DNA from: Fimbriiglobus ruber
GTDB lineage: Bacteria > Planctomycetota > Planctomycetia > Gemmatales > Gemmataceae
Assembly: GCF_002197845.1 (NCBI RefSeq)
Contig: NZ_NIDE01000001.1
Location: 248,001 to 312,000, forward strand
DNA: 64,000 bases
Direction of reading: 5' to 3'
Shown here: in pieces, positions 25,755 to 35,923 of the stretch
Layout: the number at the start of each line of letters is the position of its first letter
Position numbering within the stretch: the first letter of the stretch is position 1
Notes under the pieces: model-generated
What the model was told of the DNA's origin: nothing
Seen by the model: only the letters and a program-made list of their open reading frames with translations
The model's database searches: none
Position numbers and translations under genes: made by a program

Positions 25755-27509
25755 ATGGAAACCAGACGCGGGATCGCTGTCTCTCCCGGGGTCGCCATTG
25801 GCCCGGCCCTGGTGCTCGACACCGAGGGGGTGGTCATCTCCCACCGGACCGTCCCCCAGGAGCAGACGGAAGCCGAGGTCGTCCGGGTCGGGGCCGCCTT
25901 GGCCGCCGCCGCCGACGACGCACGGGACCGCGAACGAGACATCACCGACCGGCTTGGGCAGAGTGTCGGGGCGATCTTCCACGGGCACGCTTTTCTGTAC
26001 GAAGACCCGGGCCTGCGGCGGGACATCGAGGCGCTCATCCGAACCCAGCGGTACTCGGCCGAGTACGCCGCCAGCAAGGCCGTCCGGGGGCTGATCCGCC
26101 GGTTCGACGAGATGCCGGCCGACGGCCCGATGGCCCGCCTCAAGGCCGACTTCCTGGACCTGGAAAAGCAGGTTCTGGGCAAGCTGATGGGCGCGCCCGC
26201 GACCAACGGCCCGATCCCGCTGGCCGGGGACGCGGTCATCATTCTGGCCGGGGATCTTACCCCGAGCGAGACGGCCCAACTCGACCCGCAAATCGTCCAC
26301 GCCTTCGCCACCGAGAGCGGCGGGCCGACCAGTCACACCGCGATAATGGCGGGCGCCCTCGAGATCCCGGCCGTGGTCGGGATCGGCCGATTCTTGTCCG
26401 ACGTATCCATCGGGGATACCGTGATCGTCGACGGCACCCGCGGGTTGCTCATCCTGGACCCGGACGAGGCTACCCTCGAACGGTACACGGCCGCGCGGGC
26501 CGCTCAGGAGGCCGGCGGACAAGCCGACAACCTGCGGGACGTCGCCCCGGTCACCCGGTGCGGGACTCGCGTTTTGCTGCTTGGTAACATCGAGTTTCCG
26601 CACGAGGCACCGCACTGCCTCGACCGCGGGGCCGAAGGCGTCGGCCTCTACCGGACGGAATTCCTGTACGTCAACAAGACGGCCGACCCGACCGAGGCCG
26701 AACACTACGAGGCCTACAAGTCGGTCCTCACCGCGCTCGGGCCGGACCGGCCGGTCGTGATCCGGACCCTCGACATCGGGGCGGACAAATTTTCGGCCGT
26801 GTCCGGCCTGCTGTCCGCCGAGAAAAACCCGTTTCTGGGCCTGCGGAGCGTCCGCCTCTGCCTGAAAAATCTGGTCCTGTTCAAGACCCAACTCCGGGCG
26901 ATTCTCCGGGCCAGCGTGTACGGCGACGCCCGCCTCATGTTCCCGATGGTCTCGACCGTCATGGAACTGCGGCAGTGCAAGAGTTTGCTGGCGGAGGTGA
27001 AGGAGGATCTGGAGGAAGCCAGAATCCCCTTCAAACCGGACCTCCCGATCGGTACTATGATTGAGGTGCCGTCCGCCGCCCTGATCGCGGACGTACTCGC
27101 CCGGGAAGTCGATTTCTTCTCGATCGGGACGAACGACCTCGTTCAATACACCCTGGCCGCCGACCGGAACAACGAAAACGTTGCCGGTCTTTACAACCCG
27201 GCCGACCCGGCGGTCCTTCGCCTGATGAAGATGGTGTGCGACGCGGCCGCGACGGAAAACATCACGGTCAACGTCTGCGGGGAAATGAGCGGGGAGCCGT
27301 TGTACGTCCCCCTGCTGATCGGGCTCGGCATCCGCCAGCTGAGCGCCACCCCGAGGAAGATTCCGGAGCTGAAGCGGACGATCCGCAACCTGACGGTGGC
27401 GGACGCGGAGCGGATCGCCCGAGAATCGATGCGGATGGAGACCGCCCGCGAGGTCACGACGTACCTGCGCGAACAACTGCGACGCATCCTCCCCGATGCG
27501 GCCGACTGA
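25755..27509 (+). CDS. ptsI: Phosphoenolpyruvate-protein phosphotransferase (PTS Enzyme I)
   Basis: A 584-residue Enzyme I, the normal length. The phosphorylated histidine is His194 in GGPTSHTAIMAG. The PEP-binding domain has FPMVSTVMELRQCK, the EVPSAALIADVLAREVDFFSIG stretch and the catalytic cysteine Cys508 in NVCGEMSG. It moves phosphate from PEP to HPr in the cytoplasm. With HPr and EIIA but no EIIB/EIIC in sight, the whole set looks like a signalling PTS. Enzyme I-Ntr normally carries an N-terminal GAF domain; this one does not, so it looks like the sugar-type enzyme. It follows ptsH by 65 bases. Confidence 0.95.
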   Translation: METRRGIAVSPGVAIGPALVLDTEGVVISHRTVPQEQTEAEVVRVGAALAAAADDARDRERDITDRLGQSVGAIFHGHAFLYEDPGLRRDIEALIRTQRYSAEYAASKAVRGLIRRFDEMPADGPMARLKADFLDLEKQVLGKLMGAPATNGPIPLAGDAVIILAGDLTPSETAQLDPQIVHAFATESGGPTSHTAIMAGALEIPAVVGIGRFLSDVSIGDTVIVDGTRGLLILDPDEATLERYTAARAAQEAGGQADNLRDVAPVTRCGTRVLLLGNIEFPHEAPHCLDRGAEGVGLYRTEFLYVNKTADPTEAEHYEAYKSVLTALGPDRPVVIRTLDIGADKFSAVSGLLSAEKNPFLGLRSVRLCLKNLVLFKTQLRAILRASVYGDARLMFPMVSTVMELRQCKSLLAEVKEDLEEARIPFKPDLPIGTMIEVPSAALIADVLAREVDFFSIGTNDLVQYTLAADRNNENVAGLYNPADPAVLRLMKMVCDAAATENITVNVCGEMSGEPLYVPLLIGLGIRQLSATPRKIPELKRTIRNLTVADAERIARESMRMETAREVTTYLREQLRRILPDAAD

Positions 27510-27748
27510 CCGGAGAGGCGCCGGGCGAATGCCCCGCCCCGGTTCGGCGGTCCGCGAGCGGGTCGAGACGACGAGGTTCCCTCACCGGCCCCGTGCCCCC
27601 GATTTTCGGGGGCCGGCGGTTCCCGGTCAGCCCCTTCCGTCCGGCCCCTCCCGCACCGGGGGCAACCGACGTGAGGAGGACAGCCGGTCCGGCCACCACC
27701 CGACGCTTCGCGCCGAGGTTCGTTGCCGCCCGCGTCCCGGGCCAACCC

Positions 27749-28540
27749 ATGCTCGCTGAACCCAGCGGCGAAAAAATTCGCCTCCGCTTCCGCAAAGACG
27801 GCACGCTGCGCCTGCTCAGCCACCTCGACCTGATGCGGTGCGCGGAGCGGATGCTTCGCCGGGCCGAGGTGCCGTTCAAGTCGACCGCCGGCTTCCACCC
27901 GACCCCCCGTCTCGTCTTCGCCCTCTCCCTCCCGCTCGGCGTCGTCGGCGCGAACGAAGTCGTTGAAATCGAACTCACCAGCCCGCTGACTGCCGAAGAC
28001 GTCCGCGGGCGGCTGAACCGCCAGGCGCCGCCCGGGCTCGTCTTCACGGCCGCCCGAACGGTCGACATGAAGGCGTCCGCCGTCCCCCGCCGGGCCGTCT
28101 ATTTTCTACCACTCCCTCCGGACCGGGCGGCCTCCCTCCCCCCGGTCGTCGCCGAATTACTCGCGCGGGACAAAATCTGGGCCGACCGGATTCGGCCGAA
28201 GCCCCGCCGCGTGAACGTCAAGCCGTACATCCGCGCGGCCACGGTCCGCCCGGACGGCCTCGTACTCGACCTGTGGGTTACCGGCACCGGCGGCGCGAAA
28301 GCCGACGAGATCGCCCGGCTACTCGGCCTGGGCGACGTCCTCGACGCCGGCGCGGTCGTGGAGCGCACCGACCTGGAGATACACGACGAGACACCACCGG
28401 CGGACGACGCGCCGCCGGCCGGGCCGCCCGAAACGGCCCCCCTGGAACACGCCCCGGCTCCGGCCGCAGGCGAGGAAGACGACCCCGCGGTCGGAGCCGC
28501 CACTTGGGGCATGTCCCCGAACGGCCCGGTCGTGGAGTGA
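27749..28540 (+). CDS. DUF2344 (TIGR03936) protein next to RNase E/G
   Basis: A 263-residue protein. The N-terminal two-thirds match the DUF2344 family: IRLRFRKDGTLRLLSHLDLMR, then RAEVPFKSTAGFHPTPRLVFALSLPLG. In many bacteria this domain is fused to or placed beside a radical SAM protein, and often sits beside rng, as here. Its function is unproven; links to tRNA or ribosome modification have been suggested from its neighbours. No radical SAM domain is present in this gene or next to it. The C-terminal about 50 residues are acidic and proline-rich, probably disordered. ATG 27749 was chosen because upstream in-frame residues do not match the family. Confidence 0.85.
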   Translation: MLAEPSGEKIRLRFRKDGTLRLLSHLDLMRCAERMLRRAEVPFKSTAGFHPTPRLVFALSLPLGVVGANEVVEIELTSPLTAEDVRGRLNRQAPPGLVFTAARTVDMKASAVPRRAVYFLPLPPDRAASLPPVVAELLARDKIWADRIRPKPRRVNVKPYIRAATVRPDGLVLDLWVTGTGGAKADEIARLLGLGDVLDAGAVVERTDLEIHDETPPADDAPPAGPPETAPLEHAPAPAAGEEDDPAVGAATWGMSPNGPVVE

Positions 28541-28653: not shown

Positions 28654-31614
28654 ATGAAAAAAGAGATGCTGATAAACGTCCTCCAACCGGAGGAGTGCCG
28701 GATCGCCATCGTCGAAGACGGCGTGTTGGAAGAGTTGTACGTCGAGCGGGCGAGCCAGGAGAGCTACGTCGGCAACATCTACAAGGGCCGGATCGTCAAC
28801 ATCGAGCCGAGCATCCAGGCGGTGTTCGTCGACTTCGGGATCGGGCGGAACGGCTTCCTGCACGTGTCGGACGTCGACCCGATCTATTACAAGCACCTCC
28901 TCCCGAAAGATGTCCAGGCCGAGATGGAGGAGGACGAGAACGGCGGCGGCCGCCCGCGCGGTCGCGGTGGCGATCGGGGGGGCGACCGACGTGGTGGGGG
29001 CCGCGGAGCACCGCGGGGCGGGGAGCGCCGGGATCGTGACGGCGAGCGCGGGCCGCGCCCGGTGCGGGTGGCCGAACCGGAATCGGTCGTGTCCGCGCCG
29101 CTCGAACGACCCGAACCCGAGACACCCAAATTCGCTGACGAGTTCGCGGACGACGACGGCTTCGGCTCGTTCGCCGAAGGGATCGACGACGCGATCGTCG
29201 CGCCACCGCCGCCGCGCGAACAGCCGGCGCCGCGGCCCGAGCCCGAAGCCCGGGCGCCGCGACCCGAAGTCCGGGCGCCGCGACCGGCACCGACCCGCCC
29301 CCAATCGCCGCCGCCCGTTCCGGCCGCGGTCGACGAGGAAGGTGATTTCGGCGCCGGCGTACTATTTGACGATGAGACGCCGGCCGAAGTGACGGCTCAC
29401 GAACACAAGCCCGCCGCCGGAATCCCCCCGACGCCCGAAGTGATCGCGCCACCGTCGGCGAAACACCCGGCCGAGACCGAGTCCGACGACAACGGCTGGC
29501 CCGACGTCGAAACGATCGGTGAACTCGCGCGGGTCGTGGTACCGGCGGTCGAAAAAGAGCCGACGCCGGCCGCGCCACCCGAAGCCGAGGAACCGGCCGA
29601 ATCGACCGCGGTGGAAGCCGAAAAGCCGGCGGCCGAGCCGAAGGCCAAGGGTCGGCCGCGAAAGAGCACGAAGGCAAAGGCCAAAGCCGACGAACCAGCC
29701 GAGGAACTGGCCGACGAAGCCAAGGAACCGGAAGCCAAAGCGAAGACCAAGGGCAAGCGGCCCCGGAAGCGAGCCGAGGGCGACGCCCCGGCGGACGGTG
29801 ATGCCCCGACCGATCTCTTACCGACAGACGAGAAGCCCCGGCCGATGGGCGGGGCCGAACGGCGGTCCACCGCCGACGACGACGAGCCCGAGATCAAGCC
29901 GTTCTTCGATTCGGGCGCGGACGACTTCGATGTCGACGCCCCGAACGACCGGTTCGGGCGGGCCGGCGGCGGCGATGAGGCCGAGGGAGAAGAGGCGTTC
30001 GGGTTCGAGGAGGGCGGGGACGATGAGCCGGCCGAGCCGGTGGTGGCCCGCGGGGGTAAAGAGGCCGAAGTCGCCGGGCGCGAAGACGACGCGCCGATGA
30101 GCCAGGCCGAGTTCGACGAGGAGTTCGCCCCCCGACCCACCCGCAAGTTCAACGACGAAGACGAGGGCGACGAGGATTCGCCCGGTGGCCGCGGTCGCGG
30201 GCGCGGCCGGGCCCGGCCGCCGGCGCGCCGCGGGCCCGGCGGGCCGGGTGGCGGTCCCGGCGGCAGCCGGAGCGGTCCCCGCGACCGCGGGTTCCCGCGG
30301 CCCCCGATCCAGGAGATCTTCAAGCGCGGGCAGGAAGTCATCGTCCAGGTCATCAAGGAAGGGATCGGCACCAAGGGGCCGACCCTGAGTACGTTCATCA
30401 GCATCGCCGGCCGGTACCTGGTGCTGATGCCGAGCCTGAACCGGGTCGGCGTGTCGCGGAAGATCGAGGACTTCGACGCCCGCAAGCGGCTCCGCGAGAT
30501 CATGACCAAGCTGAACCCGCCCAAGGGCGTCGGGTTCATCGTCCGGACGGCCGCCACCGACCGGAACGAGAAGGAACTCCAAAACGACCTCGCGTACCTG
30601 CTGCGGCTGTGGCAGGTGGTCGCCCGGCGGATCAAGAAGATGCCGGCCCCGGTCGAGATCTACCGCGAGTCCGACATGATCACCCGGACGATCCGGGACA
30701 TCTTCACGAACGACATCGACACGATCTGGGTGGACGAGCCGACCGCGTTCGCCCACGCGTCCGAGTTCCTGCAGATCGTCATGCCCCGGTTCGCCGACCG
30801 CATCCGGTACTTCGCCGAAACCGAGCCGCTGTTCAACAAGCACCGGGTCGACGACGAGATCGCGAAGATCAACCAGAAGCGGATCGACCTCCCGCAGGGC
30901 GGGTCGATCATCATCGAGCAGACCGAGGCGCTGGTGGCCATCGACGTGAACAGCGGGAACTTCCGGGCGGACAACAACGCCGAGGAGACCGCGTACCAGA
31001 TGAACCTGATCGCGGCCCGCGAGATCGCCCGCCAGCTCCGCCTCCGCGACCTCGGCGGGGTGATCGTCAACGACTTCATCGACATGCGGAGCGAGTCCCA
31101 CCGGCGGAACGTCGAGAACGCCTTGCGGACGGCCCTGGAGCGGGACCGGGCGCGGACCAAGATCCTCCGCATCTCGCAGTTCGGCATCATCGAGATGACC
31201 CGCCAGCGGATCCAGCCGTCTCTGAAGAAGCGGATCTTCAACGACTGTCCGCACTGCAAGGGGACCGGGTACGTCAAAACGAACGAGACGATGAGCATCG
31301 AGGTGATGCGGCTACTCCAGCTCGCCGCCCACCGGGCCCAGGCGATCACGTCGGTCGTCCTGACGGTCCACACCGAAGTCGCGTTCTACCTCCTGAACCG
31401 CAAGCGCAAGGAAATCGCCGCGCTCGAGGAGAAGGCCAAGATGGAGGTGCAGATTAACGGCCAGAACGGGGTGTCGCCGGACCTGCTGGAGTGCCGGTGC
31501 CTCGACAGTAACGGGAACGAGGTCCGCCTCGTTTCGAGCCCCCCGCCCCGGCTCTTCCGCGGTCCGCAACAGCGTGAATTCCCGGACCGTCGCCAGCCGC
31601 GAAAGCTGGACTGA
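28654..31614 (+). CDS. rng: Ribonuclease E/G with giant disordered insert in the S1 domain
   Basis: A 986-residue protein against roughly 490-520 for RNase G. The first 85 residues are the start of the RNase E/G S1 domain (SYVGNIYKGRIVNIEPSIQA). Residues about 90-550 are low-complexity, very rich in Glu, Asp, Pro, Ala, Arg and Gly, with an RG-rich start and end. The S1 domain then resumes at 551 (IFKRGQEVIVQV). The catalytic domain is complete: metal-binding Asp764 (AIDVNSGN) and Asp807 (NDFIDM) keep the 43-residue spacing of E. coli Asp303/Asp346. Zinc-link cysteines 865 and 868 lie in CPHCKGTG. It cuts single-stranded RNA in mRNA decay and rRNA/tRNA processing. E. coli RNase E carries its disordered scaffold at the C-terminus; here it sits inside S1. 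ATG 28654 matches the family start. Confidence 0.93.
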   Translation: MKKEMLINVLQPEECRIAIVEDGVLEELYVERASQESYVGNIYKGRIVNIEPSIQAVFVDFGIGRNGFLHVSDVDPIYYKHLLPKDVQAEMEEDENGGGRPRGRGGDRGGDRRGGGRGAPRGGERRDRDGERGPRPVRVAEPESVVSAPLERPEPETPKFADEFADDDGFGSFAEGIDDAIVAPPPPREQPAPRPEPEARAPRPEVRAPRPAPTRPQSPPPVPAAVDEEGDFGAGVLFDDETPAEVTAHEHKPAAGIPPTPEVIAPPSAKHPAETESDDNGWPDVETIGELARVVVPAVEKEPTPAAPPEAEEPAESTAVEAEKPAAEPKAKGRPRKSTKAKAKADEPAEELADEAKEPEAKAKTKGKRPRKRAEGDAPADGDAPTDLLPTDEKPRPMGGAERRSTADDDEPEIKPFFDSGADDFDVDAPNDRFGRAGGGDEAEGEEAFGFEEGGDDEPAEPVVARGGKEAEVAGREDDAPMSQAEFDEEFAPRPTRKFNDEDEGDEDSPGGRGRGRGRARPPARRGPGGPGGGPGGSRSGPRDRGFPRPPIQEIFKRGQEVIVQVIKEGIGTKGPTLSTFISIAGRYLVLMPSLNRVGVSRKIEDFDARKRLREIMTKLNPPKGVGFIVRTAATDRNEKELQNDLAYLLRLWQVVARRIKKMPAPVEIYRESDMITRTIRDIFTNDIDTIWVDEPTAFAHASEFLQIVMPRFADRIRYFAETEPLFNKHRVDDEIAKINQKRIDLPQGGSIIIEQTEALVAIDVNSGNFRADNNAEETAYQMNLIAAREIARQLRLRDLGGVIVNDFIDMRSESHRRNVENALRTALERDRARTKILRISQFGIIEMTRQRIQPSLKKRIFNDCPHCKGTGYVKTNETMSIEVMRLLQLAAHRAQAITSVVLTVHTEVAFYLLNRKRKEIAALEEKAKMEVQINGQNGVSPDLLECRCLDSNGNEVRLVSSPPPRLFRGPQQREFPDRRQPRKLD

Positions 31615-33035: not shown

Positions 33036-34613
33036 TTATTTCCGGCCCGGTGCCTTGTTCGCCTCGTCCGTGTCGATCAACCCGTCGCCGTCGGTATCCA
33101 GTTTGTCGAACACGTTGGGCGGGCCGGTGAACTCCCGTCGCGACACATCACCGTCGCCGTTCCGGTCCATTGCGCGGAACCAGGATGGGCCGCCGCGGAG
33201 GTCGGTTCCGAATGACTCCGGGTAGCCGCGGCTGGCTGCGGCCAGGAGCGATCGCGGGAGCTTGTTTCTGTCCAGGGCTCCGTCCGTCAGGCAACCGACG
33301 GCCTGGAGGTTCTTCCACGCGCGGCGGAGTTCCCGGACCGACAATGCCCCGTCGTGGTTGGTATCCAACAACTCGAACAATCCGGTGCCGCCGTCGAGGA
33401 CTGTTAGCAGAACCTGGCCCGACGAGATCTGGTCCTGGAGGTCGAGCCAGGCGTCGAGTTCTTTTCGGTCGAGTTTCTTGTCGCCATCGCGGTCGGCCAG
33501 CGGCGTGAGCCACGACAGGCTGCCGCGCCGCGGGCGGGTGATTTCCATCCCGTCGCCGTCGTCGGCCGCGCTGGTCAACAATGCCGTCATCTGCCGGCGG
33601 GCGGTCGCAGTCGCCTCCGGCATCTTGCCGGCCGTTGCCCAGCCCTCGAAGCGCAAACGCTGGCCGGCAAAAACGAAGCGGTCCACACCCGTTTTCGGCC
33701 CGTTCAGCCGGACGATCCACCGGCCGTCAGGCTCCTGGTCACGCCATGCAGTCAGTTCCGCGGCTGTGAGTTTTCCGTCGTGATCGGCATCGAGCCGGGC
33801 GAATGTGGCCGTGTCGAAACCAGCTTCCGCGGCCGTGAGGTGGCCATCACCGTCGCGGTCCAACCGGCCGACGACGGTTGCGGCCCAATGAACATCGCCG
33901 GCATCGGTGGGCAGCAAGATCATTGGCACCTTGGCCAGCGCCTCGGGAATCGGCCTGTCGGCCGACGGCGGCGTAAGTAGAGTCGTCCCGGCGGCCCCAG
34001 GGTAAACGGCTTTCGGAACGAGTTCGCCGACGCCGATCAGTTCGTCGTCGTTCTTGTCCAGTTTTTTCAATACGTCGGCAGCGGCCAGCCATTCCTTCTC
34101 GGTGACTTTGCCGTCGCCGTTCGTGTCCAGGTGCTTGAGGAGCGCGTCCGTCAGTTCCGCGCTCACGGGCAACCGGCCGACTCCGATGTGGGCATTCCCG
34201 GCACCGGCCCTCCGGTAGAAACGGGCCAGTTCGGCAGGCGTAACCTTGCCGTCGCTGTCACCGTCCAGATCGGCGAACGCGGGCGACGCCCCGACCGGGG
34301 GCGTAAACCCGCTGCTCATCGCGTGGCGGAGGGCGATGGTGGACGGCAAAAGGGCTGCTTCCGTGGTATCGAGAACACCGTCCGCGTTCCGATCGAAGTA
34401 GGCGTGCAGACGGGCAAACGTCTGGTCCCAGATCGCGGAAACAGGTTTGCCGTCGACCTCGACGCGGATTTGCACGCGGGCCGCTTTGCCGTCCCCGAAC
34501 AGGACGAGTTCCAGCGGGGCTGTGGACCGCGGCGACGGCGCGGTAAGCGGGGCCGCGGCGGACACACGTTCCGCCGCGGCGAGGATCGTGACGATGGCGA
34601 GCAGGCGGGTCAC
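33036..34613 (-). CDS. Secreted protein with about ten EF-hand motifs
   Basis: A 525-residue protein that starts with GTG and a signal peptide (TRLLAIVTILAAAERVSAAA). It carries about ten EF-hand-type calcium loops in a row, among them DRNADGVLDTTE, DLDGDSDGKVTPAE, DTNGDGKVTEKE, DRDGDGHLTAAE, DADHDGKLTAAE, DTNHDGALSVRE, DRNGDGDVSRRE and DTDGDGLIDTDE. Most keep Asp at loop positions 1, 3 and 5, glycine at 6 and Glu at 12, so they should bind calcium. The GTG start overlaps the TGA of the upstream DUF1501 gene by four bases (GTGA at 34613-34610), which indicates coupled translation. I infer an extracellular calcium-binding partner of the DUF1501/DUF1549 pair. Confidence 0.88.
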   Translation of the reverse strand: MTRLLAIVTILAAAERVSAAAPLTAPSPRSTAPLELVLFGDGKAARVQIRVEVDGKPVSAIWDQTFARLHAYFDRNADGVLDTTEAALLPSTIALRHAMSSGFTPPVGASPAFADLDGDSDGKVTPAELARFYRRAGAGNAHIGVGRLPVSAELTDALLKHLDTNGDGKVTEKEWLAAADVLKKLDKNDDELIGVGELVPKAVYPGAAGTTLLTPPSADRPIPEALAKVPMILLPTDAGDVHWAATVVGRLDRDGDGHLTAAEAGFDTATFARLDADHDGKLTAAELTAWRDQEPDGRWIVRLNGPKTGVDRFVFAGQRLRFEGWATAGKMPEATATARRQMTALLTSAADDGDGMEITRPRRGSLSWLTPLADRDGDKKLDRKELDAWLDLQDQISSGQVLLTVLDGGTGLFELLDTNHDGALSVRELRRAWKNLQAVGCLTDGALDRNKLPRSLLAAASRGYPESFGTDLRGGPSWFRAMDRNGDGDVSRREFTGPPNVFDKLDTDGDGLIDTDEANKAPGRK

Positions 34614-35923
34614 AGGATCTCCTTGATCGGCTTGGCGGCCGGGTCGGCGATCCGGATGGGCCGGCTCACGTTCGACATGTTCTGTTTCATCGGATCGATG
34701 CCGACGGCCTTGACCACGGTGGCGATCAGGTCCGGCGTCCGCGTCGGGTCGCCGTCGACCGCCATGCCGTCCTTGGTGGTCTTCCCAACCACCTGCCCGC
34801 CCTTGATCCCGCCCCCGGCCATGACGGCCGCCCACGACGCGGGCCAGTGGTCGCGACCGGTGTTCCCGTTGATCTTCGGCGTGCGCCCGAATTCGCCCTG
34901 GCAGACGACGAGCGTGTCTTGAAGCAGCCCGCGCTCCTTGAGATCGGTCAAGAGGGCGGAGAACGCCGCGTCGAGGTTGCCGCAGAGCCGTTCGACGGAA
35001 GTGAAGTTGTTCTGGTGCGTGTCCCAGCCGTCCAGCGTCACCTCGACGAACGAGACTCCCCGCTCGACCAGCCGACGGGCGAGCAAACACCCCTGGCCGA
35101 ACGTGGTGCGGCCGTAGGTGTCGCGAAGGGTATCCTTCTCGTCTTCGAGGCGGAAGGCGGCGGCCGCTTCCGGTCGCATGAGCCGGACGGCCCGGTCGGT
35201 GGCCGCTTTCAGGGTGTCCGCGACCGGGCTACCGCGGCCCGATTCAAAATCCCTTTCCAGCCCCGAGAGCAGATCGAGCCGTTTCGTCTGGCTCGCGGCA
35301 GACACGTCGGCCGGGAGGCTCAAGTCCGGCACCTTGAGATCGTCGGCTCCCATAGCCGGTCCGGGACGACCCCGACCGCCTCCGACGACGAGCGGCGAGA
35401 ACCGCGGCCCGAGGAAGCCGCCCCCGATCGCGGCCTCGCCCCCGTTCGCCCGGCCGCCGATGCTGACGAAGCCGGGCAGGTCGGTGTCCGGGTCGGCGAA
35501 TTCGTGGGAGACCAACGACCCGATGGCCGGGAACTGGATCGCGCCCTGGGGAGCATACCCGGTCAGGCTAACGAACCGTGCCCGGCCGTGATCTCCTTCC
35601 TTGGTCGCCATGGAGCGGACGATCGCCATCTCCTTCATCTGTTTGGCGACCTTCGGCAAGTGTTCACCGATGCGAACGCCGGGGACGGCCGTGGCGATTT
35701 CCTTGAACGGGCCGCCGTTCTCGTGGCCGGGCTTGAGATCCCACAAGTCGATGGTCGCGGGACCGCCGTTCAGCCACAGAAGGATGACGGACTTGTGCCG
35801 CTTCGGAGCCCCGGCGGTGTTGGCCGCCAGGGCTTGCAGCCAACCCGACTGCGAGACTCCAACAGCCCCGACGGCCGCCAGGCGCAGCCAGTCACGGCGG
35901 GACAGACGGAATGAACCGGACAT
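34610..35923 (-). CDS. DUF1501 exported protein
   Basis: A 437-residue protein with a Tat-type signal (LSRRDWLRLAAVGAVGVSQSG). Family motifs are present: ILLWLNGGPATIDLWDLKPG, ATKEGDHGRARF, GWDTHQNNF and GEFGRTPKINGNTGRDHWPA. The fold belongs to the alkaline-phosphatase/sulfatase superfamily, but no catalysis is proven. The gene lies between the DUF1549/DUF1553 gene (19-base gap) and the EF-hand gene (four-base overlap). The start ATG at 35923 has GAGGAAG upstream; longer starts add only low-complexity residues ahead of the signal. The three genes look like one operon. Confidence 0.93.
   Translation of the reverse strand: MSGSFRLSRRDWLRLAAVGAVGVSQSGWLQALAANTAGAPKRHKSVILLWLNGGPATIDLWDLKPGHENGGPFKEIATAVPGVRIGEHLPKVAKQMKEMAIVRSMATKEGDHGRARFVSLTGYAPQGAIQFPAIGSLVSHEFADPDTDLPGFVSIGGRANGGEAAIGGGFLGPRFSPLVVGGGRGRPGPAMGADDLKVPDLSLPADVSAASQTKRLDLLSGLERDFESGRGSPVADTLKAATDRAVRLMRPEAAAAFRLEDEKDTLRDTYGRTTFGQGCLLARRLVERGVSFVEVTLDGWDTHQNNFTSVERLCGNLDAAFSALLTDLKERGLLQDTLVVCQGEFGRTPKINGNTGRDHWPASWAAVMAGGGIKGGQVVGKTTKDGMAVDGDPTRTPDLIATVVKAVGIDPMKQNMSNVSRPIRIADPAAKPIKEIL

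Follow-up and report, generated by a model that had tools for sequence, protein, structure and literature searches.

The S1 domain of the RNase E/G of Fimbriiglobus ruber is interrupted by a disordered insert of about 468 amino acid residues, and we consider this insert to be a degradosome-type docking platform that is looped out of the S1 domain instead of being placed at the C-terminus (probability roughly 0.6). A survey of RNase E/G proteins lists the planctomycete members at 509-588 amino acids and predicts from their size that they lack degradosomes (PMC3071783); the whole family Gemmataceae contradicts that listing. In the literature we found no described degradosome for the planctomycete phylum and no paper on a planctomycete S1 insert. 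If our reading is right, the scaffold lies in the RNA-entry domain and not at the C-terminus; the same enzyme can then carry a disordered docking platform at another place, with likely partners that can still be guessed from sequence.

The gene and its surroundings

The gene was found in a window of 64,000 nucleotides (the whole stretch of DNA that was analysed) and is present in a single copy in the host genome (12.36 Mb, 20 contigs). Its closest named relatives are from Gemmataceae/Gemmatales bacteria. The gene and the main parts of its product are as follows.

28654..31614 (stop included), + strand: RNase E/G (Rne/Rng family), 986 aa (TIGR00757, PF10150)
28654..28893, + strand: RNase H-like N-terminal strands and first half of S1, residues 1-80 (alignments to E. 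coli RNase E and 4OXP)
28894..30297, + strand: disordered insert in S1, residues 81-548 (alignments, pLDDT, family-wide presence)
30298..30402, + strand: second half of S1, residues 549-583 (alignment to E. coli RNase E from residue 86)
30400..31476, + strand: 5'-sensor, catalytic core, Zn-link and small domain (PF10150 at 583-852, PF20833 at 865-941)

The protein scored 496 bits against TIGR00757 (cut-off 326) and 334 bits against PF10150 (cut-off 25.5). It belongs to the Rne/Rng family by these curated cut-offs, both of which are exceeded, and by its catalytic carboxylates and Zn-link cysteines (D764, D807, D810, C865, and C868), which are invariant in the alignment. A fold search gave RNase E for the core; the model superposed poorly overall on E. 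coli RNase E, which is uninformative about the placement of the two S1 halves given how much of the chain is disordered. The start was assigned to ATG 28654, which has an AAGGA-like site upstream, and GTG 28273, the start in the list of open reading frames, was rejected as too early.

The frame immediately upstream (27236-28540) presumably encodes a DUF2344/radical-SAM-associated protein, which it resembles; such proteins are frequent neighbours of rne/rng genes. A PTS phosphotransferase-like gene (25755-27509) precedes this frame. Downstream of the RNase E gene, the minus strand at 33036-35090 encodes a large protein in which EF-hand-like DxDGDG repeats are numerous.

Site, size, and disorder of the insert

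Residues 3-79 correspond residue by residue to residues 2-78 of E. coli RNase E, and residue 548 corresponds to E. coli residue 86; about 468 residues stand in place of 7. In E. coli RNase E the S1 domain spans residues 36-118 (PMC4245959), and therefore S1 is still open where the insert starts. In the Caulobacter S1 structure 4OXP, chain residues 100 and 164 correspond to our residues 80 and 549, with an insert of about 63 residues at the same site. These two alignments rule out that S1 is complete before the insert. The original prediction, made from the sequence of the window, had described an S1 domain split by about 460 disordered residues, and it was correct in this; the position that it gave, 28910-30305 (residues 86-550), is right to about five residues at the N-terminal end, as S1 breaks after about residue 80 and resumes at 548-550.

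The disorder was assessed with an AlphaFold2 model computed from a 35-sequence alignment. Values of pLDDT exceeded 90 over most of the stretches 1-80 and 551-960 and stayed under 50 almost throughout residues 104-543, with one helix at 484-491 as the exception. The insert is rich in P, E, A, G, R, and D; its middle is acidic, its ends are RG-rich, and it contains Lys/Ala/Pro blocks, three features that had already been read from the translation. Only 68 residues follow the catalytic core (median 68, range 31-123 in 50 relatives), so that the S1 insert is the sole long disordered region of this RNase E, which has no C-terminal scaffold. Scaffold-like disorder thus lies inside S1 and not at the C-terminus, as had been proposed.

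An assembly or frameshift artefact was excluded, since the insert is present in 65 independently assembled relatives and is conserved at the protein level. Tandem-repeat expansion was rejected as the source of the insert; only short imperfect repeats were seen.

Distribution of the insert among lineages

We measured the length of the insert as the number of residues from the conserved 'GFLH' to 'GQEV', and compared it among planctomycetes and proteobacteria. The distance was 251-795 residues (median 418) in all 66 Gemmataceae genes, including that of F. ruber (487); sister families within the class gave 43-100, and other planctomycetes mostly 24-81. Six further planctomycete families (f23, f26, f33, f43, f49, and f84) have unrelated S1 inserts of 119-326 residues; representatives with 194-326 residues lack the Gemmataceae motifs described below. 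The RNase E of f26 also has a long C-terminal extension, with about 630 residues from the restart of S1 to the end. Values of 654 and 794 were found in two Isosphaeraceae-like RNase E genes; alphaproteobacteria gave 71-334, and gamma- and betaproteobacteria 25-31.

The long S1 insert is therefore family-wide in Gemmataceae and, judging from these lengths, appears to have arisen more than once. An origin in a common planctomycete ancestor is unsupported, as the loops of the other families are short or hold unrelated insert sequence. The sister families have no long insert and none of the motifs tested is shared with the alphaproteobacterial inserts, which points to a probable separate origin of the Gemmataceae insert and the inserts of the alphaproteobacterial and plant kind.

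Conserved islands within the insert

Across genera, most of the insert cannot be aligned. Distinct islands nevertheless emerged when 9-residue windows were scanned without bias against shuffled relatives: RG blocks at 102-123 and 511-519, DVDAPNDRF at 426-434, DEPEIKPFF at 410-418, MGGAERRST at 398-406, and DFGAGVLFD at 231-239. Three of these form the conserved block pattern 'MxGAERR[ST]...EPEIKPFF...PNDRF'. The features of the insert are listed below.

28942..29052, + strand: N-terminal RG/RD-rich block, residues 97-133 (among the top conserved islands)
29158..29190, + strand: FGAG-like motif copy 1, GFGSFAEGIDD, residues 169-179 (motif scan)
29338..29373, + strand: FGAG motif copy 2, EGDFGAGVLFDD, residues 229-240 (conserved island; common to helicase, NYN, Rho, and SpoVG)
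29641..29781, + strand: Lys/Arg-rich blocks KAKGRPRKSTKAKAK and KGKRPRKRAEG, residues 330-376 (direct reading)
29833..29868, + strand: SAERRT-type motif KPRPMGGAERRS, residues 394-405 (counts versus shuffles; island)
29884..29955, + strand: EPEIKPFF ... DAPNDRF block, residues 411-434 (PNDRF counts, alignment, islands)
30103..30126, + strand: short predicted helix, QAEFDEEF, residues 484-491 (AlphaFold2 mean pLDDT 75 for residues 481-490; weak island at 484-492)
30187..30276, + strand: C-terminal RG-rich block, residues 512-541 (conserved island)
FGAG-motif peptide, wild type: VDEEGDFGAGVLFDDE

Motifs were counted with regular expressions and compared with composition-matched shuffles. The SAERRT-type motif occurs in 53 of the 66 family inserts (0.01 in shuffles) and PNDRF in 28 (0 in shuffles), and F-x-x-G-[LIVM] occurs 77 times in 37 of the 66 (1.8 in shuffles). 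As the shuffles ignore kinship, the better argument for conservation is the contrast with the unalignable remainder of the insert. The FGAG-bearing inserts contain one to four copies, with one or two copies in 21 of the 37; the other 29 of the 66 have no FGAG-type motif. None of the three motifs was found in 15 alphaproteobacterial inserts. At both insert ends, counts exceed those of the shuffles (RG, 699 versus 413; RD, 890 versus 483; RGG, 468 versus 184), and Arg makes up on average 20% of the first 60 residues and 24% of the last 70 residues in the family. The search for linear motifs common to relatives, which had been suggested as a check, thus yielded the SAERRT, PNDRF, and FGAG islands. 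We considered PNDRF as a form of the P. aeruginosa NDPR motif (PNPase site) and rejected this, because the sequences agree in only a few letters.

The FGAG tag in other proteins of the host

A DNA pattern for [DE][DE]xF[GA]AG[LIVM], in strict spellings only, was run over the host genome. It gave four matches, versus none for the reversed control pattern, and three of the four were in frame, in a Ski2-like helicase, an NYN-domain protein, and Rho. Looser patterns added the RNase E site itself and SpoVG; with these, the reversed control also gave some matches. The other matches of the looser patterns lie in apparently folded domains or non-coding frames, as judged from the translations. The carriers outside RNase E are as follows.

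Ski2-like helicase: FGAG at the last residues, EEEDAFGAGVLD followed by stop; DEAD and Helicase_C, partial DUF3516 (Pfam)
NYN-domain protein: FGAG at the last residues, SDDEFGAGLDL followed by stop; NYN (Pfam)
Rho: FGAG in a disordered N-terminal extension, VVDEDVFGAGVIEE; Rho (Pfam)
SpoVG: FGAG at the C-terminus, TGDEFGAGIL followed by stop (looser patterns); SpoVG (Pfam)

All five host proteins in which these scans placed FGAG in a disordered segment (RNase E, Ski2-like helicase, NYN, Rho, and SpoVG) are RNA-related. Of 28 matches in seven further genomes, 15 fell in the same five protein families, and one more was in a Rho-N-terminus-like frame that ends early; the other 12 were in single unrelated or non-coding frames, none of which recurred. 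A literature search found nothing relevant on the FGAG motif.

Most Gemmataceae genomes examined have three Rho-like proteins, at least one of which bears the FGAG tag in a long disordered extension at its N-terminus; a Rho-like locus of the host lies at C4:925646-926794. The Gemmataceae SpoVG (host C17:654199-654621) contains a zinc-ribbon-like CxxC...CxxC in the middle of the protein, with a weak DZR match, and its gene is directly downstream of an ispE-like gene.

Retention, loss, and exchange of the tag

Orthologues from 30 chosen genomes carry the tag in 21/30 SpoVG, 15/20 Ski2-like helicase, 10/27 NYN, and 10/30 Rho proteins. The NYN tag was found in 10 of 15 genomes with the RNase E tag and in 0 of 12 without it (Fisher 0.0004, uncorrected for kinship). 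In the tree of the catalytic domain, almost all genomes without the RNase E tag fall in one supported clade. The losses in RNase E and NYN are thus largely on one branch and represent mainly one co-loss; the Fisher value should not be taken at face value, and the co-occurrence rests on few independent events.

In the 15-genome clade in which the tag is nearly lost, 14 of the 15 RNase E proteins have DD(D)[LI][LFSV]F[SPT][RK] (0.7 in shuffles), versus 0/15 elsewhere. This replacement motif (e.g. 'DDLLF[ST][RK]') also occurs in 4/12 NYN tails and 3/15 Rho extensions of the clade. In some genomes, NYN tails ending in DDADIRF or DDDIPF resemble the acidic C-terminal tip of single-strand DNA-binding protein.

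SpoVG retains the tag where RNase E has lost it. The tag can therefore serve without RNase E, and RNase E may be just one client among others of a hub that the tag serves. FG[SNA]G[LI] is found at the SpoVG C-terminus in 12 of 14 members of another family (f95), which we infer to be Isosphaeraceae. The long inserts of the two Isosphaeraceae-like RNase E genes contain FG[AE]GL, and at the depth of Isosphaeraceae the tag and the long insert seem to travel together.

Possible functions of the insert

As a docking platform, the insert would work through its conserved islands. FGAG would be a docking tag bound by one common putative receptor, which would gather RNase E, the Ski2-like helicase, the NYN protein, Rho, and SpoVG, and the multiple copies in RNase E would make the insert a multivalent scaffold. 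The RG-rich ends would bind RNA beside the S1 entry, and the RNase E-specific SAERRT/PFF/PNDRF block may bind a further partner. Against this reading, the motifs are short, their joint loss amounts to few independent events, SpoVG retains the tag where RNase E has lost it, and many of the inserts have one or two FGAG copies or none. Each step is plausible in view of precedents in Caulobacter, R. capsulatus, P. aeruginosa, and Listeria. An S1/5'-sensor fragment of Caulobacter RNase E that carries the insert binds RhlB (PMC4245959), Arg-rich motifs of P. aeruginosa RNase E bind RNA (PMC11964227), and in Listeria SpoVG is an RNA-binding protein with a genetic link to RNase J1 (PMC4959528). The original prediction that partners may bind at the RNA-entry domain thus gains indirect support, from the conserved motifs common to RNA proteins and by analogy with RhlB.

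The more specific proposal is that Gemmatales and Isosphaerales use an undescribed motif code, written acidic-F-G-A-G-[VIL] in general and DD-[LI]-x-F-[ST]-[RK] in one clade that has exchanged it. Through a common receptor, this code would join RNase E, the Ski2-like helicase, the NYN protein, Rho, and SpoVG in a single assembly for RNA decay and termination, scaffolded by the S1 insert. We give this proposal an even chance. The shared tag predicts candidate complex members (the helicase, the NYN protein, Rho, and SpoVG) and suggests an undescribed way to assemble the RNA-decay machinery; if true, a tag-based complex would connect RNA decay with transcription termination.

The insert may instead be mainly RNA-binding and condensate-forming, like the disordered C-terminal region in the BR-bodies of Caulobacter: the RG ends would bind RNA, the acidic, basic, and FG composition would lead to phase separation, and the motifs would be weak stickers without a dedicated receptor. 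The RG, RD, and RGG steps far above shuffles at both ends, the acidic middle, and the RG blocks as the strongest conserved islands fit this. However, stickers need not be kept at the exact C-terminal tip in the helicase, NYN, and SpoVG, and would not have to give way in parallel to another motif in RNase E, NYN, and Rho; we regard this explanation as rather unlikely.

An autoregulatory lid, as proposed for Caulobacter, would fold over the RNA channel of S1 and the 5'-sensor and act as an acidic RNA mimic until displaced by a partner or RNA. The site is the same as in 4OXP, whose insert helices occupy the RNA channel (PMC4245959), and the acidic middle and the one predicted helix with acidic residues (484-491) agree with such a role, whereas the AlphaFold2 model has no long confident structure in the insert. 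A lid of this type is unlikely here; it is compatible with docking and the two are not exclusive.

FGAG could also be another shared signal, for example a degradation or localisation tag, in which case the five proteins would share a fate and not a complex. That three of the five proteins carry it near the C-terminus is as expected for such a signal, but the tag sits within the chain in RNase E and Rho and is repeated in the former, and the disordered-segment carriers in the host genome are all RNA-related; the explanation is quite improbable. Neutral growth of a tolerated loop with low-complexity sequence, aided by high GC, is disfavoured and very improbable: the unrelated inserts at the same place in several other planctomycete families and the threefold length variation within Gemmataceae speak for it, but every Gemmataceae gene measured has an insert, never shorter than 251 residues, and its motif islands persist over deep divergence with varied synonymous codons.

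Comparison with known systems

S1 inserts at this site have been published for alphaproteobacteria (Caulobacter) and for plants (PMC4245959). Therefore the position is not new, contrary to what the original prediction had implied. The insert of Caulobacter and other alphaproteobacteria shares with ours the S1 site, the charged composition, and the predicted disorder. It differs in length, which is 50-150 residues as published and 71-334 in those sampled here, versus 251-795 in Gemmataceae and about 468 in F. ruber, or about three times the published maximum. Unlike Gemmataceae RNase E, Caulobacter RNase E also keeps a C-terminal scaffold. The plant chloroplast RNase E has an S1 insert too, which is needed for full activity in Arabidopsis according to the work cited in PMC4245959.

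The C-terminal scaffolds of E. coli and P. aeruginosa resemble the Gemmataceae insert in being disordered and in having Arg-rich stretches, which bind RNA there, and short motifs, which bind partners there (PMC11964227). In contrast to these enzymes, Gemmataceae RNase E has no C-terminal scaffold, and the motif sequences are unrelated.

RNase E of Rhodobacter capsulatus forms a degradosome with two DEAD-box helicases and Rho, which co-purify with it (work cited in PMC3071783). Rho and RNA helicases are likewise among the candidate partners in Gemmataceae, but the helicase here is Ski2-like with a partial DUF3516, not DEAD-box. To our knowledge, no shared tag is known for the R. capsulatus degradosome. 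Compared with these systems, the size, lineage, and content of the Gemmataceae insert are new, and the shared FGAG tag is what may be of a new kind.
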